A DNA stretch of 64,000 nt from Geothrix sp. 21YS21S-2 (GCF_030846775.1 NZ_CP132910.1:964001-1028000); one strand, 5' to 3'; positions 27,572-46,812 are shown, counted from the stretch's first letter. Numbers and translations: made by a program. The notes: generated from the letters alone by a model not told the origin.

Positions 27572-30500
27572 TCAGGGGGTGACGACCGGCGCGGGGGCGG
27601 CGTTCACCCAGGCGGAGTTTCCGGCAGCGTTCACCGCCTGGACACGGTAGTAGTACCGGGCCCCGCGGGGCAGGCCGTTCTGCACGAAGCTGGTGATGTT
27701 GCCTGCGACGCTGTAGTTGTTCAGGCCCGTCGTGAAGGTGGCGTTGGTCGCGCGCTGGATGTTGAAGGCGGTGTTGTTGGTGGAGTTGTCGACCCACGTG
27801 AGGGTGACCCGGTCGCTGTTGTTGGTGACCCGGACCGCGGCGGCGGCGACGCGGGTGGGCGCGGCCGGCGCAGCCAGGAGGACGGACACGGGACCCGCGA
27901 AGGCCGAGGAGCCGGCCCCGTTGGTGGAGGCGATCCGGTAGGCGTAGGTGTTGCCGGTGGACACGCTGACATCCGTGAAGGCGGTCGCGTTGGCCGCGGT
28001 GACGACCAGCAGGGTGAAGGCGCCGCCGTTGACCGACCGCTGGATGGTGAAGCCGGTTTCATTGTTGGAGTTGTCGGTCCAGGTGATGCGGATGGACCGG
28101 GCCGTCTGGATGGCCGCGGCCGGGTTCGTGGGCGCCGCGGGAGGCAGCGGCATGTTCGAAGCCACGGCCGCCGTGTAGGCGGAACTGGCCATGGCATTGG
28201 GGAAGCCCACCACGCCGCTGCCCACCAGGTTGTTGGCCATCACGCGGTAGTAGTAGACCGTGGAGGTGTTGCCGATGACGTCGGTGTAGGTGGTCACGTT
28301 GCCCAGGCTGATGGTGGTGGTGCCCACCGCGAGGAAGAGGGGATCGGTGGACTTCTGGATGGTGAACCCGGTGGCGTTCAAGGCGCTGTTGACCCACTTC
28401 AGGACGACGGACTTGGAGCGGCCCGAGCCCGTGATGGCGGCGGTGAGGGCGGTGGGCGCGTCCGGCGTCAGGGCGACGGACATGGGCCGCATCATGTCGT
28501 TCTCCTCGTGGCCCAGGAGGTGGCAGTGCCAGGTGTACTCGGCGCCGAAGTTCGCCACCTTGTTGGCGATGGTGACGGGGTTGTTGTTGGGGTCCACGCC
28601 CAGGAAGCTGGTGGAGCTGCCGATGGGAATCGTGGGATCCAGGGGCCGGATGTTGTTGGGCATCTTGAAGTTGACGGCCGGGGACTTGGCGTGGAGGGCG
28701 ACGACGATGTCCTCCAGGGGGTTCATCTTGACCGTTTCCTTCCAGCCGATCTCTTCCGGATAGGGCGGCTTGATGGCGCCGTCCCAGCCGACGCGGTTGA
28801 CCACCTGGACGTTGAAGAGGTGGAAGTGGATCGCGTGGGTGTCCACGCCGTTGTGGGTGATCTTCCAGAGCTGGACGGTGTTGTCGGGGAAGACCTCCGT
28901 GACGGGATCGGCGAACCCGAAGGGGATCGTGGTCTGGATGGTGGCGGTGGTGAAGGGCACTTCCACGCCCAGCGTGGCGTTCATGCGGCCGAAGGGATCG
29001 AAGAGCTCCTGGATGGCCTTGGGCTGCAGGGGATACACGACCCCGTTGATGTTCATGCTGGTGTCGGAGATGCGGGCGTAGGTGTTGGCCGGCACGATGG
29101 GGGCGTCCTCGGTGGCGTAGGCCGCGGCCATGGGCGCCGCCAGGGTGGCGGGATCCAGGACCGTCGCGGCGCCGTTGGCGTCGACCCGGATCTGCATGAT
29201 GGTCCGGGTGTTGGGGCCGTAGCCCGGCAGGGTCGGCGGGGCGCCGCCCTGGCTGGTCATATCGGGCCCGCCGGTGTAGAAGTCGTACCGGGGATCGCCC
29301 GCAGGCACGGGAGCCGGGGCGTCGTTGTAGAGGATGATGGTCTTCCCGGCGTACTGGGAGAAGTCCACGATCACGTCGGCGCGCTCGGCGGGGCCGAGGA
29401 AGAGCGTGTGCTCCAGGGTGTTCAGCACGGTGACGCTGCGCTTGTTGTTCTCGTAGCCGATGGGCGTGTTGGGGAGCACCACGGGCGCGGGGGCGATGCC
29501 GCCCTCGGAACCGATGTGGATGAAGGAGGGGCCCATCAGGCTGGGGCTGGGATCGGGCACGCCGCCGAACCGGTTGTCCAGGATGTTGGGGGTCATGCCG
29601 ACGGTGTCGTTGGCGGTCCAGGTGGCGGGCCAGGTCGTCCCCGGATCCAGGGCGCCGGCGGCGACCCCGGTGCCCTTGACGGCCGGGATCATCTTGACCT
29701 CGGTGAGTCCGCCGGGTCCCGTCACGGAGGGATCGGCCACGTACATCTGGAGGTTGAGGTACCGGTCGTTGCAGCCGTTGAGGATGCGGAACCGGTAGGC
29801 CGTGGGCTTGGCGCTCATGTAGGGATAGGCGGTGCCGTTGATGACCGGCGTGTCCATGAAGGCCTCGGGCACGATGGACGTGGCCGGGGGCACCATGGAC
29901 GGGAACACGGGCCAGAACCATGCGCCGTAGTCCCAGCGGCCCAGGGGGTTGGCGCCGGAGAGGTCGTTGGGGTTCTGGTTCGGCATGTAGACGTGGGGGA
30001 ACCAGAGGCTGCCCTTGGTCTGGCCCCAGGGACCGGAGGCCCAGAGCGGGTCGACCACGGTGGTGGCGGGGCTGGCGGTGCCGGTGAAGCCGGCGGGAAC
30101 CGTGCCGTCGCTCACGAAGGTCTTGTCCTGGATGATGAGGGGCACTTCCCCGCCGGGCGCGAAGGCGTTCAGGGCCCGCTCGGTGGGATCCACCAGGAGG
30201 TAGCCCGCGGCCGCGCCGCCGTATACGTTCAGGCGGGTGATGCCCATGGCGTGGTCATGGTAGAACATGAGCCGGCCGGACTGCCCATTGGGCCAGAAGA
30301 AGGTGGCGGAACCGTTGGCGGGCACCGGCATGTCGGGGACGTTCTGCTGGCTGGCGCCCTTCAGGAGGGAACCGGCCTCCCCGGCGGGGGTGATCCACTG
30401 GTGGGCCGTGCCGTCGCTGATCCAGGGGTTGTCGCCGCCGTGGAGGTGGAGCGTGGCGCGGGTTTGGGGATAGTTGGTGCCGTCGGGACCCATGCCGGCG

Positions 30501-31087
30501 CCCATGACCGTGACGTCCGTGGGGATGAAGAGGTTGCCGGTCGCGCCGGTGGGGAGCAGGTTGTCGAAGGTGACGCGGGTGGGCACGCCCTTGGTGGCCA
30601 CGATGGTGGGGCCCAGGTAGCTGGGGTTGTCGATGCCGAACTTGCCGCCTGGCAGCGGGACATGCTTGCTCACCATGGCGGGGGTCATGGCGGCCATGGC
30701 GGCGAGGGTGCCCGGGGTCTCCACCTGCACGTAGCCGCGCAGCCTGGTGGGGCCCAGGTCGGAGTGCATCTGCTCGGAGTACTCCACCAGGGCGATCTCG
30801 TAGCTGGCGGTGCCGGCGAAGGTGGTCAGGTCGGCCACGGCCACGGGGATGTACTGGCCGAGGTTGTTCGCGCCGGCCGCCGTGAGGCCCGGCAGCGAGT
30901 CGACGAACTTCCTGAGGATGGGGCTGTAGGCGAAGTTGGGCTTGGTGTAGTCCACGCCGGTGGCGAGCGGGGGCGGGGCGACGTACTGCGCGTAGAGCAG
31001 CGGCGTGGACCCCAGGCAGAGGAGGGCCGAGATCGTGACCGTTCGCGTGAGGCGGGCAGGCTTGGCCTTGGCTTGGTATTTGTTCAT
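27572..31087 (-). CDS. Exported multicopper oxidase with three fibronectin type III domains
   Basis: An 1171-aa secreted protein with a signal peptide (residues ~1-33, ISALLCLGSTPLLYAQ). All four copper-binding motifs are present: HLHGGDNPW (~215), YHDHAMG (~275), HAIHFHLFNV (~750) and HCHLLGHEENDMM (~853), the last giving the type 1 copper Cys, His and Met. The cupredoxin part is followed by three fibronectin III repeats (~875-1171; TGFTIQ recurs). Such oxidases oxidise metals such as Mn(II), Fe(II) or Cu(I), or phenolics; the substrate is unknown. The usual family length is 450-650 aa, so this is a large variant. GGAG lies seven bases before ATG 31087. The promoter carries the ATGGGGG palindrome. 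Confidence 0.92.
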   Translation of the reverse strand: MNKYQAKAKPARLTRTVTISALLCLGSTPLLYAQYVAPPPLATGVDYTKPNFAYSPILRKFVDSLPGLTAAGANNLGQYIPVAVADLTTFAGTASYEIALVEYSEQMHSDLGPTRLRGYVQVETPGTLAAMAAMTPAMVSKHVPLPGGKFGIDNPSYLGPTIVATKGVPTRVTFDNLLPTGATGNLFIPTDVTVMGAGMGPDGTNYPQTRATLHLHGGDNPWISDGTAHQWITPAGEAGSLLKGASQQNVPDMPVPANGSATFFWPNGQSGRLMFYHDHAMGITRLNVYGGAAAGYLLVDPTERALNAFAPGGEVPLIIQDKTFVSDGTVPAGFTGTASPATTVVDPLWASGPWGQTKGSLWFPHVYMPNQNPNDLSGANPLGRWDYGAWFWPVFPSMVPPATSIVPEAFMDTPVINGTAYPYMSAKPTAYRFRILNGCNDRYLNLQMYVADPSVTGPGGLTEVKMIPAVKGTGVAAGALDPGTTWPATWTANDTVGMTPNILDNRFGGVPDPSPSLMGPSFIHIGSEGGIAPAPVVLPNTPIGYENNKRSVTVLNTLEHTLFLGPAERADVIVDFSQYAGKTIILYNDAPAPVPAGDPRYDFYTGGPDMTSQGGAPPTLPGYGPNTRTIMQIRVDANGAATVLDPATLAAPMAAAYATEDAPIVPANTYARISDTSMNINGVVYPLQPKAIQELFDPFGRMNATLGVEVPFTTATIQTTIPFGFADPVTEVFPDNTVQLWKITHNGVDTHAIHFHLFNVQVVNRVGWDGAIKPPYPEEIGWKETVKMNPLEDIVVALHAKSPAVNFKMPNNIRPLDPTIPIGSSTSFLGVDPNNNPVTIANKVANFGAEYTWHCHLLGHEENDMMRPMSVALTPDAPTALTAAITGSGRSKSVVLKWVNSALNATGFTIQKSTDPLFLAVGTTTISLGNVTTYTDVIGNTSTVYYYRVMANNLVGSGVVGFPNAMASSAYTAAVASNMPLPPAAPTNPAAAIQTARSIRITWTDNSNNETGFTIQRSVNGGAFTLLVVTAANATAFTDVSVSTGNTYAYRIASTNGAGSSAFAGPVSVLLAAPAAPTRVAAAAVRVTNNSDRVTLTWVDNSTNNTAFNIQRATNATFTTGLNNYSVAGNITSFVQNGLPRGARYYYRVQAVNAAGNSAWVNAAPAPVVTP

Positions 31088-31321: not shown

Positions 31322-31381
31322 ATGGGGACGGGAAAGCATGTAATTGGGTGCCCCGGTATGGAAATGGCGCGGGGCCGGGAC

Positions 31382-31387
31382 TACCTT
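31382..31387 (+). promoter_or_regulatory. Candidate -10 box of the LuxR regulator gene
   Basis: TACCTT (in ACTACCTTGCC) lies about 25 bases before the inferred leader end. At the palindrome position used elsewhere (centre 31350.5) there is only a degenerate match (AATTGGG-TGCC-CCGGTAT, 8 of 14 arm positions), which would suit weak autoregulation. Confidence 0.35.
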
Positions 31388-31418
31388 GCCTGCACGACAC
31401 CCCCCTGGAGGCCCTCCC

Positions 31419-32126
31419 TTGATCAACCCTAGGAAGCACCGCCTGGTACTCGCCGAAGACCACACCCTTCTCCGGGACGGCCTCCGCTCGATCCTGGAAT
31501 CCCGGACCGGCTACGAGATCGTCGGGGAAGCCGGGGACGGCCGCGAAGCGATCCGCCTGGTCGCCGAGCTGGAGCCCGACCTGGTGATCCTGGACCTGTC
31601 CATGCCCCGCACCAACGGTCTCGAAGCCCTCCGTGAGATCAAGCGGATCCGGGAGCAGACCTGCGTCCTCATCCTGACCGCCCACACCGGCGAGGACTGG
31701 GTCTTCGAGGCCATCAAGTCCGGAGCCAACGGCTACCTCCTGAAGGATGGCAGCGCCGCCGAACTCCTGGAGGCGGTGGCGAGCCTCCTCCGGGGGGAGC
31801 GCTTCCTCAGCCCCGGGATCGCCACCACGGTGGTCGCCGCCTTCCTGCGCCTGCAGCAGCCCGCCCCCCGGCGCACGCCCTACGAGGACCTCACCCAGCG
31901 CGAACGGGAGGTGCTCAAGCTCGTGGCCGAGGGCTACCGCACCCGGGACATCGCCGCCTACCTGTGCATCAGCCCCAAGACCGTGGAGAAGCACCGGGGC
32001 AGCCTGATGAAGCGCCTCATGATCCACAACGTGTCCGCCCTGACGGCCTTCGCCATCGAGAAGGGGCTCGTCTCCGCGGCCCGTCCTCTCCCCGGCCCCG
32101 CCGAAGGGTCCGGAAGGCCCGACTAG
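31419..32126 (+). CDS. NarL/LuxR-type response regulator of the electron-transfer locus
   Basis: A 235-aa regulator. The start is TTG 31419, with GGAGG seven bases upstream (31407-31411). The receiver (~8-125) has AEDHT, phospho-Asp in LVILDLSMPR and Lys in GYLLKDG. The LuxR domain (~150-215) has LTQREREVLKLVAEG and SPKTVEKHRGSLM. It is a close paralogue of the 22975 regulator. It lies between the oxidase and the cytochrome operon, whose promoters both carry the ATGGGGG palindrome, so it is the best candidate to bind it. The likely kinase partners are the HisKA_3 hybrids at 23799 and 42943. Confidence 0.92.
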   Translation: MINPRKHRLVLAEDHTLLRDGLRSILESRTGYEIVGEAGDGREAIRLVAELEPDLVILDLSMPRTNGLEALREIKRIREQTCVLILTAHTGEDWVFEAIKSGANGYLLKDGSAAELLEAVASLLRGERFLSPGIATTVVAAFLRLQQPAPRRTPYEDLTQREREVLKLVAEGYRTRDIAAYLCISPKTVEKHRGSLMKRLMIHNVSALTAFAIEKGLVSAARPLPGPAEGSGRPD

Positions 32127-33868: not shown

Positions 33869-34270
33869 ATGAACCTCCTCGCCCCGGCCCTCGTCGCTCT
33901 GCTCGCCGGAGTCCCCGCCCCGTCGGACTACGTCCGCCTCGCCAGGCCCGGCGACCGGATCCCGCTGGACGCCGAGACCTCCTTCGTCTACGGCTTCACC
34001 AAGGCGCCCAAGCTGGGGACCGCCACCCTGCGGGTGGAGATCCTCCGCCGCGACGGCACCAGGGACACCTCCTTCACCGTGCGGGGCGACGCCGACATGC
34101 CCTCCATGCGGGGCGCGCACAGCACGGGCAGCAAGGCGTTCTCCGTGTCCTCCAAGGGCGTCTACCTGCTTCCCGTGAACCTGGTGATGCCCGGGGACTG
34201 GGAGGTCCGCCTGACCTTCGAGCGGGGCGGGAAGACCCTCCTGCGCGGCGCCTACCTCTTCGACATCTGA
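33869..34270 (+). CDS. YtkA-like exported protein
   Basis: A 133-aa protein with a short N-terminal signal (MNLLAPALVALLAGVPAP) and a single beta-sandwich domain. The stretch GDADMPSMRG followed by GVYLLPVNLVMPGDWEVRLTF resembles the YtkA-like/FixH-like family (DxxMPxM...Y...pMpGxWxv). Members occur with copper- or cytochrome-related genes; a direct biochemical role is not established. The visible Met pair and His in MPSMRGAHSTG could bind copper, which is inference. It sits 21 bases after the cytochrome fusion gene. Confidence 0.7.
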   Translation: MNLLAPALVALLAGVPAPSDYVRLARPGDRIPLDAETSFVYGFTKAPKLGTATLRVEILRRDGTRDTSFTVRGDADMPSMRGAHSTGSKAFSVSSKGVYLLPVNLVMPGDWEVRLTFERGGKTLLRGAYLFDI

Positions 34271-34280
34271 GGGAGCGCCC

Positions 34281-34895
34281 ATGACCCGGACCTGGCCCCG
34301 CCTGGCGATCGCCCCGGTGCTGCTGACCCTGCCCGCGGCCGCGGCCATCACCTGCGACCTGAACAGTCCCGCCACCGACGTCCCCCGGCTGTTCCCGGGG
34401 GCCACCCGCTTCAAGACGACCTATTTCTCCGTGACCGGCCCGGACCTGCAGAAGGTCCTCCGCCGGCTCGGGGAGCCCAACCGCCCCCTCTACGAGCCCC
34501 TGGAGGTCCCCTACACCCTCTACGAGATCTTCAAGGGCGACGCCCGGGCCGGCTACATCCACGGCATCAACCAGAAGGGCCAGTTCGGCGTCATCCAGGT
34601 GTTCCTGGCCCTGGACCTCCAGGGCAGGGTCATCACCTTCTACATCCAGAAGATGACCGGCCCCCTCGCCCCGAAGCTGCGCGACCCGGCCTTCGCGGGG
34701 CAGTTCACGGCGCTGTCCCTGCGCGATTTCAGGACCTTCGACCCGGTCCTGGGCAAGGGCACGGGACGCCTGGCGAAGATCCGGAACCCCGTGCCGGGCA
34801 TGGACACCGACTTCTTCGGCGTCCTCAGGGGCCTCTACAAGAACCTGGTCCTCATGGACGCCTGCTTCTATTCCCACGCGGGGGACCCGGCATGA
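34281..34895 (+). CDS. Exported protein weakly resembling FMN-binding domains
   Basis: A 204-aa protein with a signal peptide (residues 1-22, LTLPAAAAI) and a soluble domain. GQFGVIQVFLALDLQGRVITF, read as two strands, and then a LAPKLRDPAFAGQF-like segment recall the FMN_bind fold of RnfG/NosR-type proteins. The covalent-flavin Thr motif is not clear, so the assignment is tentative. The gene overlaps the FtsX permease by ATGA. Within the operon it could be a periplasmic redox or lipid-handling partner of the ABC pair. Confidence 0.5.
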   Translation: MTRTWPRLAIAPVLLTLPAAAAITCDLNSPATDVPRLFPGATRFKTTYFSVTGPDLQKVLRRLGEPNRPLYEPLEVPYTLYEIFKGDARAGYIHGINQKGQFGVIQVFLALDLQGRVITFYIQKMTGPLAPKLRDPAFAGQFTALSLRDFRTFDPVLGKGTGRLAKIRNPVPGMDTDFFGVLRGLYKNLVLMDACFYSHAGDPA

Positions 34896-36076
34896 TCAGC
34901 CTCTTCCAGATCGCCTACAAGAACCTCTTCCGCAAGAAGGCCCGCAGCCTCCTCACCCTGGGCGGCATCGCCCTCTCCTCCTGGGTGCTGGTGAGCCTGC
35001 TGGGCTTCAACCACGGCTACGAGGAGGCCCTGAACCGGGACATCGGGAACCTCGGCTACCAGCTCATGGTCATGGCCAAGGGCTGCCCGTACGAGGCCGC
35101 GACCCTGATGCTCCAGGGCGGCGGCGGCCTGCGCTACATGGACCCCGCCCTGGTGGAGACCGTGCGCCGGGAACCCGAGGTCGAAGGCATCACCCCCATC
35201 CTCATGCAGGCCTACTTCGACCCCAACAAGGGCGAGAACGGCGGCATCGCCGGGTACTTCGGCGTGGATCCCGCGACCTTCCCCGCCATGAAGCCCTTCC
35301 TCCGCTTCGAGCGCGGCGCCTGGTTCAGCGACAACGACGCCGAGGAGGTGGTCATGGGCCACGAGGCCGCGGAGCTGGAACAGCGCAGCGTCGGGGACCT
35401 GACCCTCGTGCCCGAGAAGAACGTCCCCCTGAAGGTCGTGGGCATCCTGGAACGCACCGGCACCCAGGACGACGGCACCATCTTCCTGCCCCTGGGCCGC
35501 CTCCAGAAGATCGCCGGCACCCCCAGCATCACCACCATCGGCATCCGCACCCGCCCCGGCATGGACCTGGCCGCCCTGGAGGCCAGGCTCTACCGGCTCC
35601 CCGACGTGCAGGTGGTGAGCTTCACCCAGGTGCGGCAGACGATCCTGAAGCTCATCGCCACGGCGCGGGTGATGGTGCTGTCCATCGCCCTCATCGCCAC
35701 CCTCATCGCCATGATCGGCGTGGTGAACACCATCCTCATGTCCGTGCTGGAGCGCCTGCAGGAGATCGGGATCCTCAAGACCATGGGGGCCATGCCCCTG
35801 GACGTGTTCCTGCTGGTGTGGACGGAGACCCTGATCCTCTGCACCTGCGGGGCCCTGGCCGGCGTCGCGGCGGCCCTGGGCCTCGCCCGCGTCACGGATG
35901 GCCTGGCGCGCCAGGTGCTCCCCTATGCCCCCCGGGGCGGCCTGGTGGACATCGACGCACGCCAGGTCCTGCTGACGGTGGCCATCATCGTATCCGTCGG
36001 TCTGCTCAGCGGTTTGTACCCGGCCTGGAAGGCCGGCCGCGTCAAGCCCCTGGACACCATTCGAGGTGAATCATGA
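34892..36076 (+). CDS. FtsX/MacB-type ABC transporter permease
   Basis: A 394-aa permease with one N-terminal membrane helix (~20-40), a large periplasmic domain (~45-260) and three C-terminal membrane helices (~270-390): the MacB/LolC topology. The FtsX-type core is seen in SVLERLQEIGILKTMGA and the last helix ends SGLYPAWKAGRVKPLDTIRG, the family end. Such proteins act as mechanotransmitters that extract lipoproteins or export substrates rather than form a channel. ATG 34892 overlaps the previous stop and the gene overlaps the ATPase by four bases, so all are coupled. Confidence 0.9.
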   Translation: MISLFQIAYKNLFRKKARSLLTLGGIALSSWVLVSLLGFNHGYEEALNRDIGNLGYQLMVMAKGCPYEAATLMLQGGGGLRYMDPALVETVRREPEVEGITPILMQAYFDPNKGENGGIAGYFGVDPATFPAMKPFLRFERGAWFSDNDAEEVVMGHEAAELEQRSVGDLTLVPEKNVPLKVVGILERTGTQDDGTIFLPLGRLQKIAGTPSITTIGIRTRPGMDLAALEARLYRLPDVQVVSFTQVRQTILKLIATARVMVLSIALIATLIAMIGVVNTILMSVLERLQEIGILKTMGAMPLDVFLLVWTETLILCTCGALAGVAAALGLARVTDGLARQVLPYAPRGGLVDIDARQVLLTVAIIVSVGLLSGLYPAWKAGRVKPLDTIRGES

Positions 36077-36762
36077 CGAGCACCACCGTTCTCGAGGCAA
36101 GGGGCCTGACCCGCGTGTACCGGAGGGGCAGCGAGGACATCAGGGCCGTGGACGACGTCTCCCTGGCGATCCGGGCCGGGGAGGTGGTCGCCGTCACCGG
36201 CCCGTCCGGGTCCGGCAAGACCACCCTCATCAACCTGCTCGGCTGCCTCGACAACCCCACCAGCGGCGAACTCGAGCTCGCCGGCAGGCGGATGCACGGG
36301 GAAGGCCGGCCCCTGGCCGAAACCGAACTCACGCGGGTCCGGCGGGCGGTCTTCGGCTACATCTTCCAGAACTTCCACCTGATTCCCACCCTGACGGTGC
36401 GGGAGAACGTGGCGGTCCCCCTGGCCTTCTGCCCCCGGCCGGATGGCGCCGGAGACGTGGACCGGCTGCTGGGGATCCTGGGGCTGGAAGGCCGGCGGAA
36501 CCACCTCCCGAGGGAGATCTCGGGCGGGGAGATGCAGCGGGTGGCCATCGCCAGGGCGCTGGTGAACCGGCCGAAGATCCTCCTGGCCGACGAGCCCACG
36601 GGGAGCCTCGATTCCCGGCGGATGGAGGAGATCGGGGAGACCCTGAAGTGCCTCAACCGGGTGGAGGGGCTGACGATCATCATGGTCACCCACGATGCCC
36701 AGCTGGCCAGGATCGCGGACCGGTGCCTGGAGATCCGGGATGGCCGGGTGCACGCCGCGTAG
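36073..36762 (+). CDS. LolD/MacB-type ABC ATPase
   Basis: A 229-aa ATPase. Walker A GPSGSGKTTLINLLG (~43-57), Q-loop FGYIFQNFHLIP, signature ISGGEMQRVAIARAL and Walker B ILLADEPTGSLD are intact, with the family-specific LIPTLTVRENV. It pairs with the FtsX-type permease encoded just upstream (4-base overlap). The pair might handle lipoproteins such as the giant cytochrome encoded next, or protect the envelope; this is inference from position. After the gene there are 130 bases containing operator copy 3. Confidence 0.92.
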   Translation: MTSTTVLEARGLTRVYRRGSEDIRAVDDVSLAIRAGEVVAVTGPSGSGKTTLINLLGCLDNPTSGELELAGRRMHGEGRPLAETELTRVRRAVFGYIFQNFHLIPTLTVRENVAVPLAFCPRPDGAGDVDRLLGILGLEGRRNHLPREISGGEMQRVAIARALVNRPKILLADEPTGSLDSRRMEEIGETLKCLNRVEGLTIIMVTHDAQLARIADRCLEIRDGRVHAA

Positions 36763-36835: not shown

Positions 36836-36894
36836 AGGCAGGCCCCTGCCGGTTTTTAAACTGGGGCGTCGACACATTTCCCGACCGGAGGCCC

Positions 36895-39800
36895 GTGGCC
36901 ATGCCAGTCCGATCCAGAGGTGGAGAATCCAGGCCCCGGCCCGTCCTGCGGGCCCTGGCCCTCCTGCTGTGCCTGGCCATCCTGGCGGGCTGCGGCGGCG
37001 GAGGGAAGCCCCCGGCGGGCGGCTACCATCCCGCCGGATGGCTCACGGCCCATCCGGCCCAGGCCCTGGCGGGCCTCGATCACTGCAGGACCTGCCACGA
37101 AACGACCGTCCTCAAGGCAGGCAGCGGCATTCCCGGCTGCATGACCTCCGCCTGCCACCATGGGACCCTGCCCGGTTTCGGCCTCCCGGCCGCCCACGGC
37201 GTGCGGGCCAAGGCCGCCCAGGACGCCACCGGCGGCGGGCTCGTGTCCTGCCAGGCCTGCCACGGTGCGGACTTCGGCGGAGGCGGCTCGGCGGTCTCCT
37301 GCAAGAGCTGCCATGGGGTCGCCGCCCCCCATCCCCCCAGGCCCTGGAACGGCCTGGCCACCCACAGCACGACGGACCCCTCCAACGCGGCGGTGTGCGC
37401 CCGGTGCCACTTCGCGGGGGCCCCGGCCAACCCCGCCGGCCACCCCGCCCAGCCCGCCCCGGCGGGCACGGTGCCCACCTGCTACAACAACACGCTCTGC
37501 CATGGGGCCAACACCGCCAGCCACCCGGTGCCCTTCCTGGGGCCCCTGCACGCCGGCGCGACCCAGGCCGCCTTCACCGCCGGCTGTGCCACCTGCCACG
37601 CCCTCGACGGCGCGTCGCCCGTGGCCTCCGCCCCGCAGTGCTCCGCCTGCCACCAGGCGGGCTCGCCCCTCACCCGGACCGGGTGCGCGTCGTGCCATGG
37701 GAAACCGCCCGCGGGCAGCGCCTTCCCGGATGTGAAGGGGGCCCACGCCAGGCACGACGCCCTGGGCGGGGTGACGGGGACCTGCACGCCCTGCCACACG
37801 TCGTACGACGCCGGTTCCCTGGCCCACTACAACCGCGGCAACGCGAGGCCCGGCCTGGATTCCCTGCGGGTGCCCCCCGGGGCCGTGCAGGTCCCGGCGG
37901 CCTTCAACGCCAAGGCCGGCCCGGCCGCCTTCGACCGAGCCGCCCTCACCTGCTCCAACGTCAGCTGCCACGGCGGCGCGATCACCCCGGCCTGGGGCAC
38001 GGGCACCCTCGACAGCGCCTCGGACGCGGGCTGCCGCCAGTGCCACGCCGCGGGCGGGGCCGAGAGCAACGCGGCGGCGACGCCCCTCCATGCCTTCCAC
38101 CTGGGGGCCCCGGTGGGCGCCCTGTGCACCGACTGCCATGCCATGGCCAACGGCACGCCCGGCGCCCTCAACCACTTCGCGCACCTGGACACGCCGCAGA
38201 TGGAGGGTCCCGCCGGCGACACCATCCAATACGCCGGGAACCGCTCCGTCTACAACGCCGCGAACAGGTCCTGCACCCTCACCTGCCACGGGTACCAGCA
38301 CGCGGGGTCCACCTGGGCCAGCCCCGCGGGCACCTACCATGCCACAGGCTGGCTGGCGGTCCACCCGGGCCAGGCCCTCGCCCCCCAGGCCACCTGCACC
38401 GTCTGCCACGCCATGACCGTGCCTGCGGCGCCCAGCGCCATCCCCAGCTGCATGACGGCGGCCTGCCACCATGGCACCATCACCGGGTACAACCTGGCGG
38501 CCACGCACGGCCCGCGGGCCAAGGCCCTCCAGGGCCCGGGGGGCGGCGGGCTCCGGTCCTGCCAGGCCTGCCATGGGCCGACCTTCGCCGGCGGCGCCTC
38601 CACCGTGTCCTGCCAGAGTTGCCACGGCGTTCCCGCCCCCCATGCGCCCAGGCCCTGGAACGACGCCGCCGGGCTCACCCACAGCACCACCGATCCCTCC
38701 AACGCCGCCGTGTGCGCACAGTGCCACCTGGCGGGCTCTTCCAGCAACCCCCCGGGCCACCCGGCCCAGCCCGCCCCGGCGGGAACCGTGCCCACCTGCT
38801 TCAACAACACGATGTGCCACGGTCCCGAGGACGCCCCCCACCCCCTGGGCGCCGGGTGGCGGGACGCCACCAGCACCGCCTTCCACGGCCTCGCGGCCAA
38901 GAAGGACCTCCTGGCCTGCCAGGCCTGCCACGGCATCCCGGGAACCCCCGGGTTCGCCGGAGGCTCCGCGCCCACGTCCTGCGCGGCCTGCCACGCCGCC
39001 GCCTCCTCCCACTCCACCACCTGGGCCCCCGCGCCGGTGGAGACCTTCCCCGGCTACGTGCCCTCCCACCGGGACGCCCAGAACCGGGACAACGCCTGCC
39101 CCGTGTGCCATGACTACGCCAAGGGCCGGACCGCCCCCCTTCCAGCGGCCCCGAGCTGCTTCGCCAGCGCCGCAGGCGCCGTGGCCTGCCACGCCGCCGG
39201 CCCCGGCCAGCCCAACCACGCCGTCCCCTTCCTGGGCGCGCTCCACACCGGCGCCACCCCGGCCAGCTTCGCCTCCGACTGCGGCACCTGCCACGTCGTG
39301 ACGGGAACGCCGCCCCTGGCCTCGGCCCCCGCCTGCGTCCTCTGCCACCAGGCCGGCTCGCCCCTGGCTCTGGCCGCCTGCGCCTCCTGCCACGGCAAGC
39401 CCCCGGCGGGCGGCGCCTTCCCGGACCTGGCGGGGTCCCACGCCAAGCACGACGCCCTGGCGCGCGTGACGGGGCTCTGCTCCACCTGCCACGACACCTT
39501 CGACGCGGGCTCCCAGGCGCACTATGACCGCGGCAACGCCCGGCCCGGACTGAACACCCTGCGGGTGCCCCCCGCTCCGGTGCGGCTGCTGGCCACCTTC
39601 AACGCCAAGGCGGGCGCGGCGGCCATGAACGCGAGCAACCTCACCTGCTCGAACGTCAGCTGCCACGGGGGCGTGACCACCCCGGCCTGGGGCACGGGCA
39701 CCATCGCTGCCACCACGGACGGCGGCTGCCGCCAGTGCCACCAGGTGGGCTCCGCCCAGGCCACCCCGGAGAACAACGCCGCCTGGTCCGGTCTCCACGG

Positions 39801-40863
39801 CTTCCACCTCGCGTCCGTCGTCGGCGCCCTGTGCACCGACTGCCACAGCATGACCGGCGGCACCGCGGGCGCCGCCAACCACTTCGCGCACCTTGACACG
39901 CCGCAGATGGAAGGCCCCGCCGGCGACACCATCCTGCTGCCGGGAAGCTCCGCCAACGCCTACGACGCCGCCAACCGCACCTGCACCGTCACCTGCCACG
40001 GCCACGCGCACGCCGCCTCGAGCTGGAACGGCGGCCCCTCCCACCCGGTGCCCTACCTGGGCACGGGCCACACCGGCGCCAATTCCCAGGCCGCCTTCGC
40101 CTCCGGCTGCGCCTCCTGCCACGGGGTCACGGGCGCCTCCCCCCTGTCCACCGCACCCCTGTGCACCGTGTGCCACCAGGCGGGGTCGCCCCTCGCGGTG
40201 GCCAACTGCGCCTCCTGCCACGCCCGGCCGCCGGCGGGCGCGGCCTTCCCGGATCTCCCCGGCAGGCATGCCAAGCACAACGCCCTGCCTTCCGTCACCG
40301 GCCAGTGCGGCTCCTGCCACACCAACTACGACGCCGGCACCCTGAACCACTACACCCACGCCAACGCCCGCCCCGGCGCCGACGCGCTCAGGGTGCCGCC
40401 CGCGCCCACCGGCTTCTCCGCGACCTACAACGCCAAGGCCGGCGCCGCGTCCTTCAGCCCCACCGCCTACACCTGCACCAGCGTGAGCTGCCACGGCGCC
40501 CTGGCGGCCCCCAGCTGGCAGACCGGGACGCTGGATTCCACCGGGGCCACCGGCGACGCGGGCTGCCGCGCCTGTCACGCCCGCGGCACGTCCCTTGGCG
40601 TTCCGGAGAACAACAGCTACTACTCAGGCCACCACGGCACGCACCTGGGCTCCGAGGTCAGCGCCAAGTGCACCGACTGCCATGGAATGGCCAACGGGAC
40701 CCCCGGAGCCCTTGCCCACTTCACGAGGCTCGACACGCCTCAGATGGAGGGCCCGGCCAGCGACACCATCCAGTACCTCGGCAGCCGGACCGTCTACAAC
40801 GCCACCAGCAGGACCTGCACCCTCACCTGCCACGGCGAGAACCACACCAACCGCGGCTGGTAG
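36895..40863 (+). CDS. Giant lipoprotein multiheme c-type cytochrome (29 CxxCH)
   Basis: A 1322-aa exported cytochrome. A lipoprotein signal (LLLCLAILAGC, lipidated Cys near residue 33) points to outer-membrane anchoring. I count 29 CxxCH sites plus non-standard pairs: three CX3CH (CTLTCH, CTVTCH), five CX4CH (CSNVSCH, CTSVSCH, CMTSACH, CMTAACH) and two CX5CH (CYNNTLCH, CFNNTMCH). CSNVSCHGG...WGTGT...CRQCH is the CxxxxCH/CxxCH module known from Geobacter outer-surface cytochromes. HLDTPQMEGPA recurs at ~430, ~1000 and ~1277, showing internal duplication. GGAGG at 36887 serves either GTG 36895 or ATG 36901. It is probably a long heme wire for extracellular electron transfer. Confidence 0.93.
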   Translation: MAMPVRSRGGESRPRPVLRALALLLCLAILAGCGGGGKPPAGGYHPAGWLTAHPAQALAGLDHCRTCHETTVLKAGSGIPGCMTSACHHGTLPGFGLPAAHGVRAKAAQDATGGGLVSCQACHGADFGGGGSAVSCKSCHGVAAPHPPRPWNGLATHSTTDPSNAAVCARCHFAGAPANPAGHPAQPAPAGTVPTCYNNTLCHGANTASHPVPFLGPLHAGATQAAFTAGCATCHALDGASPVASAPQCSACHQAGSPLTRTGCASCHGKPPAGSAFPDVKGAHARHDALGGVTGTCTPCHTSYDAGSLAHYNRGNARPGLDSLRVPPGAVQVPAAFNAKAGPAAFDRAALTCSNVSCHGGAITPAWGTGTLDSASDAGCRQCHAAGGAESNAAATPLHAFHLGAPVGALCTDCHAMANGTPGALNHFAHLDTPQMEGPAGDTIQYAGNRSVYNAANRSCTLTCHGYQHAGSTWASPAGTYHATGWLAVHPGQALAPQATCTVCHAMTVPAAPSAIPSCMTAACHHGTITGYNLAATHGPRAKALQGPGGGGLRSCQACHGPTFAGGASTVSCQSCHGVPAPHAPRPWNDAAGLTHSTTDPSNAAVCAQCHLAGSSSNPPGHPAQPAPAGTVPTCFNNTMCHGPEDAPHPLGAGWRDATSTAFHGLAAKKDLLACQACHGIPGTPGFAGGSAPTSCAACHAAASSHSTTWAPAPVETFPGYVPSHRDAQNRDNACPVCHDYAKGRTAPLPAAPSCFASAAGAVACHAAGPGQPNHAVPFLGALHTGATPASFASDCGTCHVVTGTPPLASAPACVLCHQAGSPLALAACASCHGKPPAGGAFPDLAGSHAKHDALARVTGLCSTCHDTFDAGSQAHYDRGNARPGLNTLRVPPAPVRLLATFNAKAGAAAMNASNLTCSNVSCHGGVTTPAWGTGTIAATTDGGCRQCHQVGSAQATPENNAAWSGLHGFHLASVVGALCTDCHSMTGGTAGAANHFAHLDTPQMEGPAGDTILLPGSSANAYDAANRTCTVTCHGHAHAASSWNGGPSHPVPYLGTGHTGANSQAAFASGCASCHGVTGASPLSTAPLCTVCHQAGSPLAVANCASCHARPPAGAAFPDLPGRHAKHNALPSVTGQCGSCHTNYDAGTLNHYTHANARPGADALRVPPAPTGFSATYNAKAGAASFSPTAYTCTSVSCHGALAAPSWQTGTLDSTGATGDAGCRACHARGTSLGVPENNSYYSGHHGTHLGSEVSAKCTDCHGMANGTPGALAHFTRLDTPQMEGPASDTIQYLGSRTVYNATSRTCTLTCHGENHTNRGW

Positions 40864-40883: not shown

Positions 40884-41237
40884 ATGCTCATCGCCCGCAT
40901 CGCCCTCATCGCCTTCGCAACCTTCCAGACCCTTTCCGCCCAGCCGAAGAAGGAGGCCCCCCCCTTCGGGGGCGACTACCCCAAGTACTGGCTGGACGTG
41001 TGCGCCCGCTGCCACGGCGTGAACGGCAACGGCCGCGACAACGCCGGCCAGCAGCTGCCCGACAACGGCTTCGATTTCACCGACAGCCGCAAGGCGGGCC
41101 GCAAGAAGGATTCCGACTGGGTCCGCATCACCCTGGAAGGCAAGGAGAAGATGCCGGCCTTCAAGGGCAAGATGACCCCCGAGCAGGCCCAGAAGATGAT
41201 CACCGACATCATCCGTCCCTTCGGCGCCAGGCGCTAG
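40884..41237 (+). CDS. Small monoheme cytochrome c
   Basis: A 117-aa periplasmic cytochrome. The signal peptide (residues 1-19, ending LSAQ) precedes one heme site CARCHGVNGNGRDNAGQ (~42) and a C-terminal axial Met in MPAFKGKMT, the class I pattern. AGGAGG lies four bases before ATG 40884, 20 bases after the giant cytochrome. It probably shuttles single electrons between the inner-membrane heme protein encoded downstream and the multiheme cytochrome. Confidence 0.92.
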   Translation: MLIARIALIAFATFQTLSAQPKKEAPPFGGDYPKYWLDVCARCHGVNGNGRDNAGQQLPDNGFDFTDSRKAGRKKDSDWVRITLEGKEKMPAFKGKMTPEQAQKMITDIIRPFGARR

Positions 41238-41245
41238 GAGCACCC

Positions 41246-42028
41246 ATGACCCCGCGCCTGCGAACCGCCGCCCTGTGCCTGGCCTCGGGCCTCCTCTTCG
41301 GCGAGTCCTCCGAGTACCCCCTGGGGGTCAACCTGCCCACGGGCGACATGATGCAGTTCTGGGACCTGGGGATCGCCTTCACCCACCGCTTCTCCACGCC
41401 CGCCTCCGGCCACGGCAGGGACGCCTACGGCCTGGACGGCTACGCCTACCCGGGCTTCGGCGTGGACTTCGGATTCAAGCCCGTCAAGGGCCTCAACGTG
41501 ATCCTCTACCGCACGGCGGACAACAAGACCTTCACGTTCGCCCTCCAGCAGCGGCTCCTCAACGCCGACTTCGTGCGCATGGCCCTCCGGGCCGAGCGGT
41601 TCGACGAGGTGGTCAGGCGCGACGAGACGCCCCTCGGCACCGTGGGCCTCACCGGCGCCGCCTGCCAGCTGCCCACGGAAGTCTTCCTCGGGGACTTCGG
41701 GACCCTGACGGTGGTTCCCACCTGGCTGAGCCGCACCACCACCCGGAAGAAGGCCGTCTTCACGGCGGGAGCGGGACTGCGCATCGATTTCACCGACAAG
41801 CTGGGCTTCGTGGCCGAGTACTACCCGCGCCCCTCGAAGATCGACAAGGCCTTCAAGCCGGGCTACGCCGCGGGCTTCACCTACAAGACCTTCAAGCACC
41901 GGTTCACCCTGGTGGGCACCACCACCTCGGGCACCACGGCCAACCAGGTCCTGTCCGGGGACTACGGCGGGGGCGCGCGCTCCACCGGCCAGTGGGCCCT
42001 GGGGTTCAACGTGGAAAGGACCTTCTGA
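41246..42028 (+). CDS. DUF5777-like outer-membrane beta-barrel protein
   Basis: A 260-aa exported protein with a signal peptide (residues ~1-19) and alternating amphipathic strands throughout, ending in an aromatic residue (ALGFNVERTF), the usual outer-membrane insertion signal. MMQFWDLGIAFTHRF and GVDFGFKPVKGLNVILYRT resemble the DUF5777 barrel family found beside cytochrome genes in several phyla. It may form the pore around or beside the electron conduit. AGGAG lies five bases before ATG 41246; it is tightly spaced in the operon. Confidence 0.75.
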   Translation: MTPRLRTAALCLASGLLFGESSEYPLGVNLPTGDMMQFWDLGIAFTHRFSTPASGHGRDAYGLDGYAYPGFGVDFGFKPVKGLNVILYRTADNKTFTFALQQRLLNADFVRMALRAERFDEVVRRDETPLGTVGLTGAACQLPTEVFLGDFGTLTVVPTWLSRTTTRKKAVFTAGAGLRIDFTDKLGFVAEYYPRPSKIDKAFKPGYAAGFTYKTFKHRFTLVGTTTSGTTANQVLSGDYGGGARSTGQWALGFNVERTF

Positions 42029-42031
42029 GCC

Positions 42032-42934
42032 ATGACGGGCCCCATCGAGCTGTTCTCCAGGGAGCATCCCGCCTTCGTCCACGTACCGCTGGGCCTGGTG
42101 GTGTGCCTGCCTTTCATGATCGCGGCCGCCTACCGGTCCCGGTACCCCCAGACCTGGCGGCGCATGGCCCTCCGGGTGGCCCTGGTGGCCCTCGGCGGAG
42201 GCCTCCTGACCATGGCCAGCGGACTCTACTGGGGCCGGCTGCTCAACCTGATCCCCGCCGGAAGGCTCCTGCCGGTCGTCTCCTCCCAGGGCCAGGCGCT
42301 CCAGCGGACCCTGCGGTCCCACGAGGTGAACGCCCTGGCCGGAGCCGTCCTCGGCATCCTGTGCGTGCTGCTCCTGCGCAGGGCCTGCCGGGAGCCCGGG
42401 GATGCCCGCTGGACCGGAGCCTGCCTCCTGGGGACGGTCCTGTGGGCCGGGACGTGGGGGTACGTGGGCAAGCAGGGGGGCGTGATGGTCTTCGGCGACG
42501 CCGAGACCAACAAGGCCGCCGCGGAGGCCATCAACGCGAAGAAGAACGACGCCGAGGCGGAACTCCCCCTCCGGGCCCTGGACTATGCCAGCCTGGAGCC
42601 GCTGCAGGCGGCGCCCTTCCGCAGCAGGGCCCACGGGGGCCGGGAGGCCCGCTCCTGGGTCACCGCCTCGGGCAGCGACGCGCTGGCCGCCGGAAGGCCG
42701 CTTCCCGTCGGGGCCTACGCCGTCCTGACCACGTGGACCCTGGGCCTTCCCGGTCCCCTCCACATGCGCGAGGCCAAGGCCGACGGCACCCAGGCCTTCG
42801 CCCTCTACTGGCCCCGCGTGCCCGAGGGCGAGCGCGCGGCTTTCGGGGGGGAGGATTCGGTCTACTGGCGGAGCCCCCACCCGGCCCTGGAAGCCTGCGC
42901 CGGCTGCCATGCCGCGGGGAAGGCGCGGCCCTGA
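42032..42934 (+). CDS. DUF2231-like membrane protein with a C-terminal heme site
   Basis: A 300-aa protein with four hydrophobic segments (residues ~15-165). The beginning HPAFVHVPLGLVVCLPF and ASGLYWG match the DUF2231 type of membrane domain, whose conserved His residues may bind heme. The soluble C-terminal part (~170-300) ends in CAGCHAAGK, a single CxxCH heme-attachment site placed nearly at the C-terminus. It could be the inner-membrane quinol-side entry of the conduit; this is inference from topology and operon position. It starts three bases after the barrel gene. Confidence 0.72.
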   Translation: MTGPIELFSREHPAFVHVPLGLVVCLPFMIAAAYRSRYPQTWRRMALRVALVALGGGLLTMASGLYWGRLLNLIPAGRLLPVVSSQGQALQRTLRSHEVNALAGAVLGILCVLLLRRACREPGDARWTGACLLGTVLWAGTWGYVGKQGGVMVFGDAETNKAAAEAINAKKNDAEAELPLRALDYASLEPLQAAPFRSRAHGGREARSWVTASGSDALAAGRPLPVGAYAVLTTWTLGLPGPLHMREAKADGTQAFALYWPRVPEGERAAFGGEDSVYWRSPHPALEACAGCHAAGKARP

Positions 42935-42942: not shown

Positions 42943-45900
42943 TCAGGCGGGGCCGGGGGAGCCCTGGGTCTCCCGTATGGCCCTCAACAGGTCTGAAGTC
43001 GGTCCCCGCAGGGCACCCCCGGACGCCTCCGCATGGGACGAGAACCCGATGATGCGGATCCCTTGGCTTTCCCGCCAGAGGGTGCGCGCCAGATCCGCCC
43101 CGACCGGCCCCGCCGCGCCGGCATCCACCACCACCACATCCGGCTTGAGCCTTCGCACCAGGTCCCGCGCCTCCTCCCCGTCCTTCGCCACCCCCACCAC
43201 GTCCAGGTCGTCCTCCTCAGCCAGGAGGTCCTCCAGCACCCCGCGCTGCGCGGGATGGCCCCCCACCAGGAGGATGGCGATCCGCGCACCCTGGCCCCCG
43301 GCGCCCTCGGCCAGCGGCACCTTCGCCTCGTTCCGGGCGTAGATCGTCGTGCGGGTGCCCTCGCCGGGGCCGCCCACGATCTCCATGCGGCCGCCCACGT
43401 GGGCGAGCCGCTGCTGGATGTTGAACAGGCCGAAGCCCCCCCGGCCCAGGGCCAGCGGGGCCGGGTCGATGCCGCGGCCCTGGTCGGCCACCACCAGCTT
43501 CAGCCATCCGCCGCCTTCCCGGGTGAGCGTGACCCTGGCCTCCTTCACCCCGGAGTGCTTCGCGGAGTTCAGCACGAGTTCCCGCACCGAATTGAACAGG
43601 AGGAGCTTCAGGGATTCCTCCGCCGGCTCGGTGCCGGGATCCGCCTGGATGTCCACCCGGAAGCCCGACTGCGCGGCCAGGCGCTGGGCGAGCCAGGTGA
43701 GCGCGGCCAGGAGGCCGCCCTGCTGGAGGATGGGCGGGCACAGCTCCACCGCCAGGGAGCGGGACGCCTCGATGGCCTCCCGCAGGATGGCGTCCACCTC
43801 CCCGAAGCGGGCGGGAATGTCCTCACCTCCCGAGAGCTGGATCAGCTCCACCTTCATCCTGGCGGCCACCAGAAGCTGCTGGAGGTGGTCGTGGAGGACC
43901 AGGGCCAGGCGCTGGCGCTCGCGCTGCTCGGCCTGGGTGAGCTCCAGGGCCAGCGCGCGCAGGCGGCTGACCAGCCCCTGGACCTCGGCCGTTCGTTCGG
44001 CCACGCGGCGTTCCAGGTCCTCGTTGGAAAGGCGGAGGACCTCCTTGTTCTTCTTCTTCTCGAGTGCGATGGCCAGGTGGGTGGAGAGGGCGTTGATGAG
44101 GGCCAGGTCCCCCTCGTTGAAGGCCTCCCTTTCGGCGCCGAAGGCGAGGGTGCCGAAGATCCGTCCGTCGCTGCCCAGAAGGGAGCGGCAGGCGAAGGCC
44201 TTGATCCCGTATTCGGAGGCGAGCTGGGCGGGCGGGCAGAAACCCGGGCCGCACGGGACGGGCGCGTCCTCCCGGGCGTCGCACGCGCAGTCCGGCGCCC
44301 TGGAGCAGGCGGCCTCGAAGCTCGCCGAATCCTCCGGGCGCAGGCCGCTGCTGGAGTAGAGGCGCAGGTCACCTGCCGGTCCGGCGAGAAGGTTCAGGAA
44401 GACCTGGCAGTCCAGCGCCACCATGCATTGCCGGGCCAGGGACTCCATGAGGGCTTCGGGATCCTCCTGGTGGAGAAGGGCGGCCATGGCGGCGGCGAGG
44501 GTCTCCAGACGGTGGTGGTTCCGGCGCAGGGTCTCCTCCGAGCGCTTGGCCTGGGTGATGTCCCGGGTGAAGCTGCCGACGCCCGACACCTGGCCGAGCT
44601 TGTCGAGCACCGGGTAGAACGAGTGATGGAAGGAGATGCCGTCCCTTTCATCCTCGAATCCCATGGGCTCGCGGGTGGCGACGACCCGCGCCAGGACGGC
44701 CCTCCGCGCGGCGGCGACGTCCGGGGGGACGAACTCGTCCATCAACCTGCCCACCAGTTCCTCCTGGGAGCGCCCCACCCTCAGGGCCGCGGTGGGATTG
44801 GCCAGGACGACCCGCCCCTCGGGGCTGAAGAGCCATATGGATTCCGTCGTCGCCGCCATGAAGGCCTGCATTCTCGCCGCCGTCTGGAGGAGTTCCCCCT
44901 CCATGCGCTTGCGCTCGGAGATGTCCCGGATGACGCTCAGGATCCGCTCCTGGCCTTCGAGGGTGATGCTCCGGGCATTCACCTCCACCTGGACCTGCGT
45001 GCCGTCCTTGCGCCGGTGGACGGTCTCGAACAGGGTGCCGTGGTTCCGGGCCTCGAGGATCTGCCGGCGGACGATCCCGGGTTCGTCCACCCGCAGATCC
45101 TGGATGGAGAGCGCCACAAGCTCGTCGTGGGCATAGCCGTAGAAATCCACGGCGGCCTGGTTGGCCTCCTCCACCCGGCCCTCCACATCCACCAGGATGA
45201 GGGGATCCCGGGCGTGCCTGGCGATGAGGTGGTAGCGCTCGGCCACCGCCTGGGCCTTCCGGCGGGCGGTGACGTCCCGCAGGGCCACCATGCGCCGGGC
45301 CTGGCCCTCGAACATGAACGGCCTGGAGGTCGCCTCCAGGTCGAGGACGGTGCCGTCCCCCCGGAGGGCACTGAGCTCGCCCATCCGGCCATCCCCCTCC
45401 AGGACGGCGTCCAGGGCCCCGGCCCGGTCCGGCCCCGGCAGGATCGCATCGAGCTCCGCTTCCAGGATCGCCTCCTTGTCCCGGCCCAGCATCCTGCAGA
45501 AGCGGTCGTTGGCATCCACGATCCGCCGCCCGTCCAGGATGGCGATGCCCTCGGAGGTGGCCTCGGCCAGGAGGCGGAAGCGGGTCTCCCGGTCCCGGAG
45601 CGCCTCCGCGGCGGCCGCGCGTTCGGCCGCGACCTGGGCCCGGGTCTCGGCCTGGGAGGCCCGGGCCCGGGCCTTGAGCATCGACCCCACCACGGACGTG
45701 ATCAGGCAGCTGCCCACCAGGAACACCAGGAGCTCGGCGCGCTGGGCGGGGTCGTTGTCCACGAGGCTGCCGGGGGTGATCAGGTACCAGTCCACCACGA
45801 AGCCGGAGAGCAGGGTGGCCAGGAGGCCGCCCCGCAGGCCCCCCGCCAAGGCCGCGAGCAGGACGGCCGGATAGAAGGTGATGAACGGGTGGCTGGCCTC

Positions 45901-46812
45901 CAGCCCCGACAGGAAGAGGGCCCGGAACCCCCAGGCCGCCGCCACGATGAGAAGCACCACCAGGGGCCAGAACCGTTCCATGCGGCGCAGGAGGAGGAAG
46001 GCGCGCCCGGCCTGCGGAGCGGGCCCGCCCCGGCCCAGGGCGGCCAGGACGAGGTAGGCTCCGCCCAGGAACTGGGCCCAGTGCCCGGTCCAGCCCAGGA
46101 GGCCGCCGGGAACCGGGTCGAGGGTCAGGCCCAAGGCGCCCAGCGCGAACAGGGCAAGGGCCGCGGCGTAGAAACGGCCGAAGACGGACGGGGCCCGGCG
46201 GTCCCGGACGGCCTGGATCCCGGCAGCGGCCAGCAGTGCGGCAAGGGTGGAGACGGCCATTCCGGAACCCAGCCCGGCGGGGCCCCAGGCCGGAACCCGG
46301 AGGCCCAGCCACCCCCCCAGGGCCAGGGTCGCCACCCCCGCCACCGCCAGCCAGACCCGGGGCGACCGCGGGGACGCGCCGGGCCGGGCCAGGAGGAGCA
46401 CCGCCGCCAGGTGGCAATGGGAGGCGGCCCAGAGGCACACCGCCTGGAGGCGTTCCACGCCCGGGCCTTCCCCGAAGTCTGGACGGGACGCGAGGATCGC
46501 CCAGGCGCCTTGCATCAGGGCCCCGCCCATCAGGAGGAGAAGCCCCGGTTCCCCCGAGCGCAGGTACAGGCGGCCCAGGCGATGGATCACCAGCGCCGAC
46601 GTGAGGATCAGGAACAGGAAGTTGAGATGCAGAAAGAGGAAAGCCGAACCGTAGGGCGTGCGGAGTTCCGCCCGCAGCAGGACCAGTTCCGCGGCGAGGA
46701 TGAGGGGAATGGGCAGCCATGCCAGGGTCGCGAGCCGCCCCGGACCGGAGCCCGGAATGCCCGGGCCCTTCCGTGGGGCCGGCCCTGGGAATGGACCCGC
46801 ATCCGTGGTCAA
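42943..46812 (-). CDS. Large membrane hybrid histidine kinase (3 PAS, GAF, degenerate receiver)
   Basis: A 1289-aa kinase. About a dozen hydrophobic segments (residues ~15-375) include a KdpD-like DUF4118 region (SHPFITFYPAVLLAALAGGL). Three PAS domains follow (~405-520, ~525-645, ~650-770), then a GAF domain (~790-930), a HisKA_3 domain (ERQRLALVLHDHLQQLL), an ATPase domain (VLNSAKHSGVKEARV, DQGRGIDP) and a receiver-like end (~1175-1285). There the acidic pair is lost (ILLVGGHPAQ) and Lys is absent, though Asp remains (DVVVVDAG). The start is TTG 46812, four bases after AGGAGG. HisKA_3 predicts a LuxR-type partner, probably the 31419 regulator. It converges with the cytochrome operon. Confidence 0.9.
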   Translation of the reverse strand: MTTDAGPFPGPAPRKGPGIPGSGPGRLATLAWLPIPLILAAELVLLRAELRTPYGSAFLFLHLNFLFLILTSALVIHRLGRLYLRSGEPGLLLLMGGALMQGAWAILASRPDFGEGPGVERLQAVCLWAASHCHLAAVLLLARPGASPRSPRVWLAVAGVATLALGGWLGLRVPAWGPAGLGSGMAVSTLAALLAAAGIQAVRDRRAPSVFGRFYAAALALFALGALGLTLDPVPGGLLGWTGHWAQFLGGAYLVLAALGRGGPAPQAGRAFLLLRRMERFWPLVVLLIVAAAWGFRALFLSGLEASHPFITFYPAVLLAALAGGLRGGLLATLLSGFVVDWYLITPGSLVDNDPAQRAELLVFLVGSCLITSVVGSMLKARARASQAETRAQVAAERAAAAEALRDRETRFRLLAEATSEGIAILDGRRIVDANDRFCRMLGRDKEAILEAELDAILPGPDRAGALDAVLEGDGRMGELSALRGDGTVLDLEATSRPFMFEGQARRMVALRDVTARRKAQAVAERYHLIARHARDPLILVDVEGRVEEANQAAVDFYGYAHDELVALSIQDLRVDEPGIVRRQILEARNHGTLFETVHRRKDGTQVQVEVNARSITLEGQERILSVIRDISERKRMEGELLQTAARMQAFMAATTESIWLFSPEGRVVLANPTAALRVGRSQEELVGRLMDEFVPPDVAAARRAVLARVVATREPMGFEDERDGISFHHSFYPVLDKLGQVSGVGSFTRDITQAKRSEETLRRNHHRLETLAAAMAALLHQEDPEALMESLARQCMVALDCQVFLNLLAGPAGDLRLYSSSGLRPEDSASFEAACSRAPDCACDAREDAPVPCGPGFCPPAQLASEYGIKAFACRSLLGSDGRIFGTLAFGAEREAFNEGDLALINALSTHLAIALEKKKNKEVLRLSNEDLERRVAERTAEVQGLVSRLRALALELTQAEQRERQRLALVLHDHLQQLLVAARMKVELIQLSGGEDIPARFGEVDAILREAIEASRSLAVELCPPILQQGGLLAALTWLAQRLAAQSGFRVDIQADPGTEPAEESLKLLLFNSVRELVLNSAKHSGVKEARVTLTREGGGWLKLVVADQGRGIDPAPLALGRGGFGLFNIQQRLAHVGGRMEIVGGPGEGTRTTIYARNEAKVPLAEGAGGQGARIAILLVGGHPAQRGVLEDLLAEEDDLDVVGVAKDGEEARDLVRRLKPDVVVVDAGAAGPVGADLARTLWRESQGIRIIGFSSHAEASGGALRGPTSDLLRAIRETQGSPGPA

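Follow-up and report, generated by a model that had tools for sequence, protein, structure and literature searches.

Gene and module architecture

The window analysed here is a 64,000-nucleotide stretch of DNA from Geothrix sp. 21YS21S-2 (GCF_030846775.1 NZ_CP132910.1:964001-1028000), whose genome is 5.25 Mb in size and whose named relatives are Holophagaceae, Acidobacteriota. On its plus strand, positions 36901..40863 hold the gene of a giant multiheme c-type cytochrome lipoprotein of 1320 residues, built of modules in the order A-B-A-C-B-B and possessing 40 C-Xn-CH sites. The reading frame is open throughout from 36895 to 40863 and would encode 1322 residues if translated from the GTG at 36895. 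A Shine-Dalgarno-like GGAGG at 36887-36891 is located 9 nt upstream of the ATG at 36901 and only 3 nt upstream of this GTG, and therefore the ATG is the likelier start, with the GTG as the alternative. At its N-terminus the protein has a signal peptide, which ends in the lipobox LAGC (36901..36993, plus strand; the codon of Cys33 is 36991-36993), in agreement with the lipoprotein call made in a preliminary description of this DNA. A long open reading frame on the opposite strand (36856..40578, minus) is probably no more than an artefact of coding DNA with a high GC content.

The protein contains 40 CH dipeptides, and a partner cysteine is found upstream of each of them, giving 29 CX2CH, 3 CX3CH, 5 CX4CH, 2 CX5CH and 1 CX9CH motifs. 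The last one reads CFASAAGAVACH and begins at residue 755 (the site spans residues 755-766). The 29 CX2CH motifs had been counted correctly before, as had the CX3CH, CX4CH and CX5CH ones, and it is the total of ten additional motifs that has to be corrected to 11, the CX9CH at residue 755 having been overlooked. These pairs account for 80 of the 82 cysteines, 22 of which belong to the 11 wide (non-CX2CH) motifs. Left over are C26, within the signal peptide, and C33, in the lipobox LAGC; after the lipobox cysteine there is no cysteine outside the 40 pairs. When the 29 CX2CH blocks were held fixed and all other residues were shuffled for 20,000 rounds, no more than 3 wide pairs arose by chance, compared with the 11 observed.

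DNA repeats and alignments divide the chain into modules with 6, 8, 6, 4, 8 and 8 sites, all encoded on the plus strand. Module A, with the spacings 2-4-2-2-2-5, is present at 37084..37503 (CX4CH 37138-37158, CX5CH 37480-37503) and again at 38395..38820 (CX4CH 38449-38469, CX5CH 38797-38820). Module B, with the spacings 2-2-2-2-4-2-2-3, is present in three copies, at 37585..38289 (CX4CH 37951-37971, CX3CH 38272-38289), at 39280..39999 (CX4CH 39646-39666, CX3CH 39982-39999) and, as the terminal module, at 40108..40833 (CX4CH 40474-40494, CX3CH 40816-40833). The single module C (38917..39192; spacings 2-2-2-9) ends in the CX9CH motif at 39157-39192. The module alignment confirms that the wider motifs recur at fixed positions of the repeats, as had been proposed; of the three copies of HLDTPQMEGPA reported with them, two are exact and the third reads RLDTPQMEGPA. 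Module C resembles sites 3-6 of module A in an hhalign profile comparison (97.7%, E 2e-12). A control comparison with sites 1-4 of module B also scores (89.6%, E 2e-6), so part of the similarity must come from the shared CXXCH pattern; the residues around the motifs match as well in the alignment of C with A. By this resemblance the CX9CH or CX14CH of module C corresponds to the CX5CH of module A.

In all three B modules, sites B5-B6 are a CX4CH followed by a CX2CH, which is the signature of the Geobacter CxxxxCH/CxxCH family (TIGR01904 / PF09698); the TIGR01904 profile matches three stretches of the protein with 44.8 bits against a cut-off of 27. The earlier placement of the CX4CH pairs in this known module is hence right for the three B copies and wrong for the two copies of module A, in which CX4CH is a different site. 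The model spans only the CX4CH-CX2CH pair, and CX3CH, CX5CH, CX9CH and the whole of modules A and C lie outside it. PF14522 (95.2 bits, cut-off 24.8) and PF14537 (63.9 bits, cut-off 25) are Cys-rich profiles, so these matches amount to a broad c7/c3-like assignment. PF22113 (OmcA/MtrC) reaches 34.3 bits against a cut-off of 30 in residues 1128-1236 only, and the module order differs. Among the profile matches at E <= 1, there is no chain of the OmcS, OmcE or OmcZ type.

Cysteine spacing and probable heme attachment at the wide motifs

Do the 11 wide pairs hold heme? We propose that the protein probably carries about 40 hemes rather than 29, an argument based on comparison of homologous sequences. 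The spacing at each position of module A was counted in 90 A modules, all of them complete and drawn from Holophagaceae and from the order to which a Geobacteraceae relative belongs; the counts are those of sequences and not of independent events. Sites A1, A3 and A5 are CX2CH without exception. Site A2 is CX4CH in 40 modules, CX9CH in 28, CX2CH in 19, CX3CH in 2 and CX14CH in 1, while site A4 is CX2CH in 73, CX5CH in 16 and CX3CH in 1, and site A6 is CX5CH in 89 and CX9CH in 1. Of 160 B matches, 145 have CX2CH at site B2 and 13 have a motif ranging from CX4 to CX15CH there. Site B8 is CX3CH in 95, CX4CH in 10, CX7CH in 4, CX5CH in 1 and CX9CH in 1 (CX2CH in 0), with the second Cys-His falling outside the column in 19 rows. 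Site B5 is CX4CH in 143 of the 143 B modules where it could be aligned. Site C4 keeps both cysteines and the histidine in 9 of 9 copies, with a loop of either 9 or 14 residues.

In all copies compared (13 of A, 34 of B and 9 of C), every site retains the histidine that follows the second cysteine. Outside the motifs, 7 histidines of A, 8 of B and 4 of C are conserved at the 80% threshold, compared with 6, 8 and 4 sites, so that a distal ligand is available for every site; only 4, 6 and 3 would be needed for 29 hemes. No unpaired cysteine after the first heme cysteine was found in the 24 homologs checked, which have 18-72 sites. From these homologs we infer that the wide motifs are sites of covalent heme attachment, presumably with bis-His ligation. 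The preliminary description had labelled the protein a 29-heme cytochrome and had left two options for the extra motifs. That label and the disulfide or metal-site option are not supported, given the appearance of CX2CH in the A2, A4 and B2 columns of relatives and the supply of distal histidines sufficient for 40 sites; the option of further hemes is favoured by the interchange of spacings, the conserved histidines and the absence of spare cysteines.

Precedents exist for unusual spacings in other proteins. MmcA of Methanosarcina acetivorans binds heme covalently on CXXXCH and CXXXXCH, as found by mass spectrometry with a heme shift of 615.17 Da (PMC11024163); it has seven hemes and an archaeal maturation machinery, and is likened here by its motifs. 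In OmcZ of Geobacter sulfurreducens, heme 1 is held by a 14-residue Cys-Cys loop (PMC9473688, PMC11208441), which is comparable with the CX14CH in relatives of module C; unlike the present protein, OmcZ has eight hemes and a known filament structure, and modules A and B have no profile match to it. The sulfite reductases MccA/SirA attach heme to the very wide pair CX15CH (PMC6976685, PMC10663686), but with dedicated heme lyases, whereas one System II lyase is the only recognisable one in the Geothrix genome.

It is unlikely, in our judgement, that the chain holds 37-39 hemes, with heme c on CX3CH, CX4CH and perhaps CX5CH and a CX9CH that is empty, disulfide-bonded or attached through a single cysteine. 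The MmcA precedent covers CX3CH and CX4CH directly, none was found for CX9CH, and a lone lyase may reject long loops; against this stand the invariant Cys pair and histidine of C4, a site that resembles A6, the occurrence of CX9CH and CX2CH in the same A2 column, and the long loop at heme 1 of OmcZ. That heme binding is confined to the 29 CX2CH sites, with the 11 wide pairs serving as structural disulfides or other metal sites, is very unlikely: it could draw on the want of a CX5CH or CX9CH precedent in the literature searched and on the single recognisable System II lyase, when published CX15CH cases require dedicated ones (PMC10663686), but the A2, A4 and B2 columns mix CX2CH with wide motifs, a disulfide has no need of the histidine kept after the second cysteine in every copy, the conserved distal histidines are enough for all sites, and heme attachment to CX3CH and CX4CH has been proven in another protein (PMC11024163).

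Several observations weigh against the reading of about 40 hemes and the function attached to it. A CX2CH version of A6, B5 or B8 was never seen in the 90 A modules and 160 B matches, and because of this the case for these three sites rests on the conserved histidines, the lack of spare cysteines and precedent; together with C4 they are the weakest heme-site assignments. Neither CX5CH nor CX9CH was encountered in the literature searched. AlphaFold gave no usable fold for A2-C-B2 (alignment of 23 rows) or for module A (14 rows), with a mean pLDDT of 42 and 45, respectively. Single-sequence and profile searches of the PDB returned no convincing relative, what they matched being, it seems, just the CXXCH pattern in common. 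Very wide motifs such as CX15CH require a dedicated lyase in Wolinella, which has a System II lyase of its own for each of CX2CH, CX2CK and CX15CH (PMC10663686), and the genome here shows one. Finally, the electron-transfer role and the location rest on gene family and neighbours.

As for maturation, the genome search found one CcsA-type protein (PF01578) and one ResB-type protein, encoded by adjacent genes. The PF01578 family also covers CcmF and CcmC. This System II lyase is the only recognisable heme lyase of the genome, and it is possible that a diverged one lies below the search threshold. A single PF01578 match is also present in several other host genomes, including those encoding the 72-site and CX14CH proteins (G098, G036, G074), while other genomes carrying these cytochromes have 2-4 matches. 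Either the lone lyase is more permissive, or some of the wide sites are unfilled. With a likelihood that we would put just short of even, one System II lyase loads Cys pairs spaced by 2, 3, 4, 5 and 9 residues in one protein (and by 14 in relatives), the spacing drifting freely at defined heme positions and no unusual motif having a lyase of its own.

Relatives and growth of the chain

B modules occur in 41 of 77 genomes of Holophagaceae, in proteins of 14 to 72 sites, and, at E <= 1e-8, in 79 of the 141 genomes belonging to the order of the Geobacteraceae relative. The largest relative found, of 2672 residues (L098:2942-10957, minus strand), has 72 C-Xn-CH sites, 53 of them CX2CH, in the order A-B-A-C followed by six B modules, and is encoded outside the DUF5777 gene cassette described below. 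A Desulfuromonadaceae relative (L038:380-3502, plus strand) consists of three successive A-type stretches and a C module ending in CX14CH, with spacings of 1, 2, 4, 5, 6, 9 and 14. The Geothrix genome itself encodes a paralog of 26 sites with the order A-C-B-B.

In the module trees, B1 and B2 of the window protein both cluster with the first B of the paralog and close relatives (95/97), B3 clusters with their last B, and the two A copies share a single group at genus level (97/96). Because B1 and B2, and likewise the two A copies, group in this way, the most likely origin of the additional A-B unit is inside the genus. The A-B-A-C start is also seen in another genus (L057, L098), where the A and B copies branch elsewhere in the tree, and for this reason the same order there probably arose separately. 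Inner B copies multiply, and the last B tends toward conservation by position. Growth by module duplication, as suggested in the preliminary description, is thus supported by the DNA repeats and the module tree.

Giant cytochromes with very many heme motifs on a single chain, expressed or predicted outside the cell, are known from Desulfuromonas, with 69 motifs in D. soudanensis (PMC4914508) and 86 in D. acetexigens (PMC12133095). They are likened here by description; both numbers exceed the 40 of the present protein, and 86 exceeds even the 72 of the largest relative. A record heme number, considered at one point, was dropped in view of these published counts. We read the present protein as a modular giant multiheme cytochrome with elastic Cys spacing at defined heme sites.

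The A module also exists by itself. Elsewhere in the Geothrix genome (L067:6888-11036, plus strand), a 5-heme protein and a 6-site A-type lipoprotein (5 CX2CH, 1 CX5CH) adjoin an OmcA/MtrC-like decaheme protein. The first two genes of this locus recur in other Acidobacteriota loci, often together with a larger multiheme protein.

Gene cassette, proposed role and implications

Downstream of the giant cytochrome gene, on the same strand, follow the genes of a small monoheme cytochrome c (Cytochrome_CBB3; 40884..41237), a DUF5777 membrane beta-barrel protein (41249..42028, start codon approximate) and a predicted membrane protein of the DUF2231 type that bears a CXXCH, namely CAGCH, in its C-terminal part (42032..42934). 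This four-gene order is kept in most Holophagaceae loci examined, and in most cassettes the DUF5777 beta-barrel, which has no Pfam match to an MtrB-type porin, lies two genes downstream of the cytochrome. The giant cytochromes in cassettes have 14 to 50 sites, and the proteins of 72 and 54 sites are encoded outside. Relatives of the DUF5777 protein came from 25 members of Holophagaceae and one other in a sample of 347 Acidobacteriota genomes, and a literature search for DUF5777 found no papers. A third DUF5777 locus of the Geothrix genome (L218:7510-9135, plus strand), a minimal form of the cassette, has the monoheme cytochrome c and the DUF2231 protein without a giant cytochrome, and so the latter looks like an addition to a smaller unit.

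Directly upstream on the plus strand (33869-36762) are genes for a YtkA-like protein, a secreted protein, a MacB-type permease and an ABC ATPase; this ABC transporter was rejected as a cassette member, not being conserved beside the homologs. Other genes in the window encode a large hybrid histidine kinase that has PAS, GAF and receiver domains and whose gene converges on the cassette (42943-46812, minus strand), a LuxR-type response regulator (31344-32126, plus), an 8-CXXCH cytochrome with several immunoglobulin-like domains (PF14522 and Ig_3/I-set; 61638-63884, minus) and a 1171-residue protein with multicopper-oxidase-like and fibronectin III domains (Cu-oxidase_2, fn3; 27572-31087, minus).

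Proteins of this class ordinarily pass electrons along a series of bis-His hemes, and electron transfer is the best reading of function here as well. The protein would be exported and anchored by lipid, we infer in the outer membrane, and its three module types would offer 40 attachment sites, each probably with a bis-His heme c. Odd-numbered sites of modules A and C are CX2CH throughout, while A2, at times A4, and the final site of the module would tolerate a longer Cys-Cys loop (2, 3, 4, 5, 9 or 14 residues) and still keep their heme; the sites of module B that vary or have widened are 2, 5 and 8. The protein grows when entire modules are duplicated between the conserved A at its N-terminus and the conserved B at its other end, and the heme chain lengthens accordingly. 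With the small cytochrome c, the DUF5777 beta-barrel and the DUF2231 protein, it most likely serves to move or store electrons, linking the cell envelope to an acceptor outside.

The protein is likely to be located outside the cell. The less favoured but still plausible arrangement, also compatible with 40 hemes, is a store of electrons in the periplasm or a bridge between membranes, as opposed to a conduit that faces outward to minerals or partners. The signal peptide and lipobox fit an inward-facing outer-membrane lipoprotein, the cassette includes a DUF2231 membrane protein and a soluble cytochrome, and the minimal cassette without a giant cytochrome is present in the same genome. On the other hand, the Desulfuromonas giants are predicted to be extracellular or are expressed during extracellular electron transfer (PMC4914508; PMC12133095), and the A module also exists as the 6-site lipoprotein beside an OmcA/MtrC-like decaheme protein.

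Heme counts are usually taken from CX2CH, or at most from CX2-4CH (e.g. PMC7399161). A CX2CH count would miss about a quarter of the likely sites, finding 29 of 40 in the present protein and 53 of 72 in its largest relative, and CX5CH, CX9CH and CX14CH sites would be missed even by CX2-4CH counting. Homologous positions with five spacings, in a set of genomes of which several show a single lyase, make up a natural experiment on lyase tolerance. The same-locus cassettes, with cytochromes of 14 to 50 sites, likewise form a series in which chain length may be compared with electron transfer.

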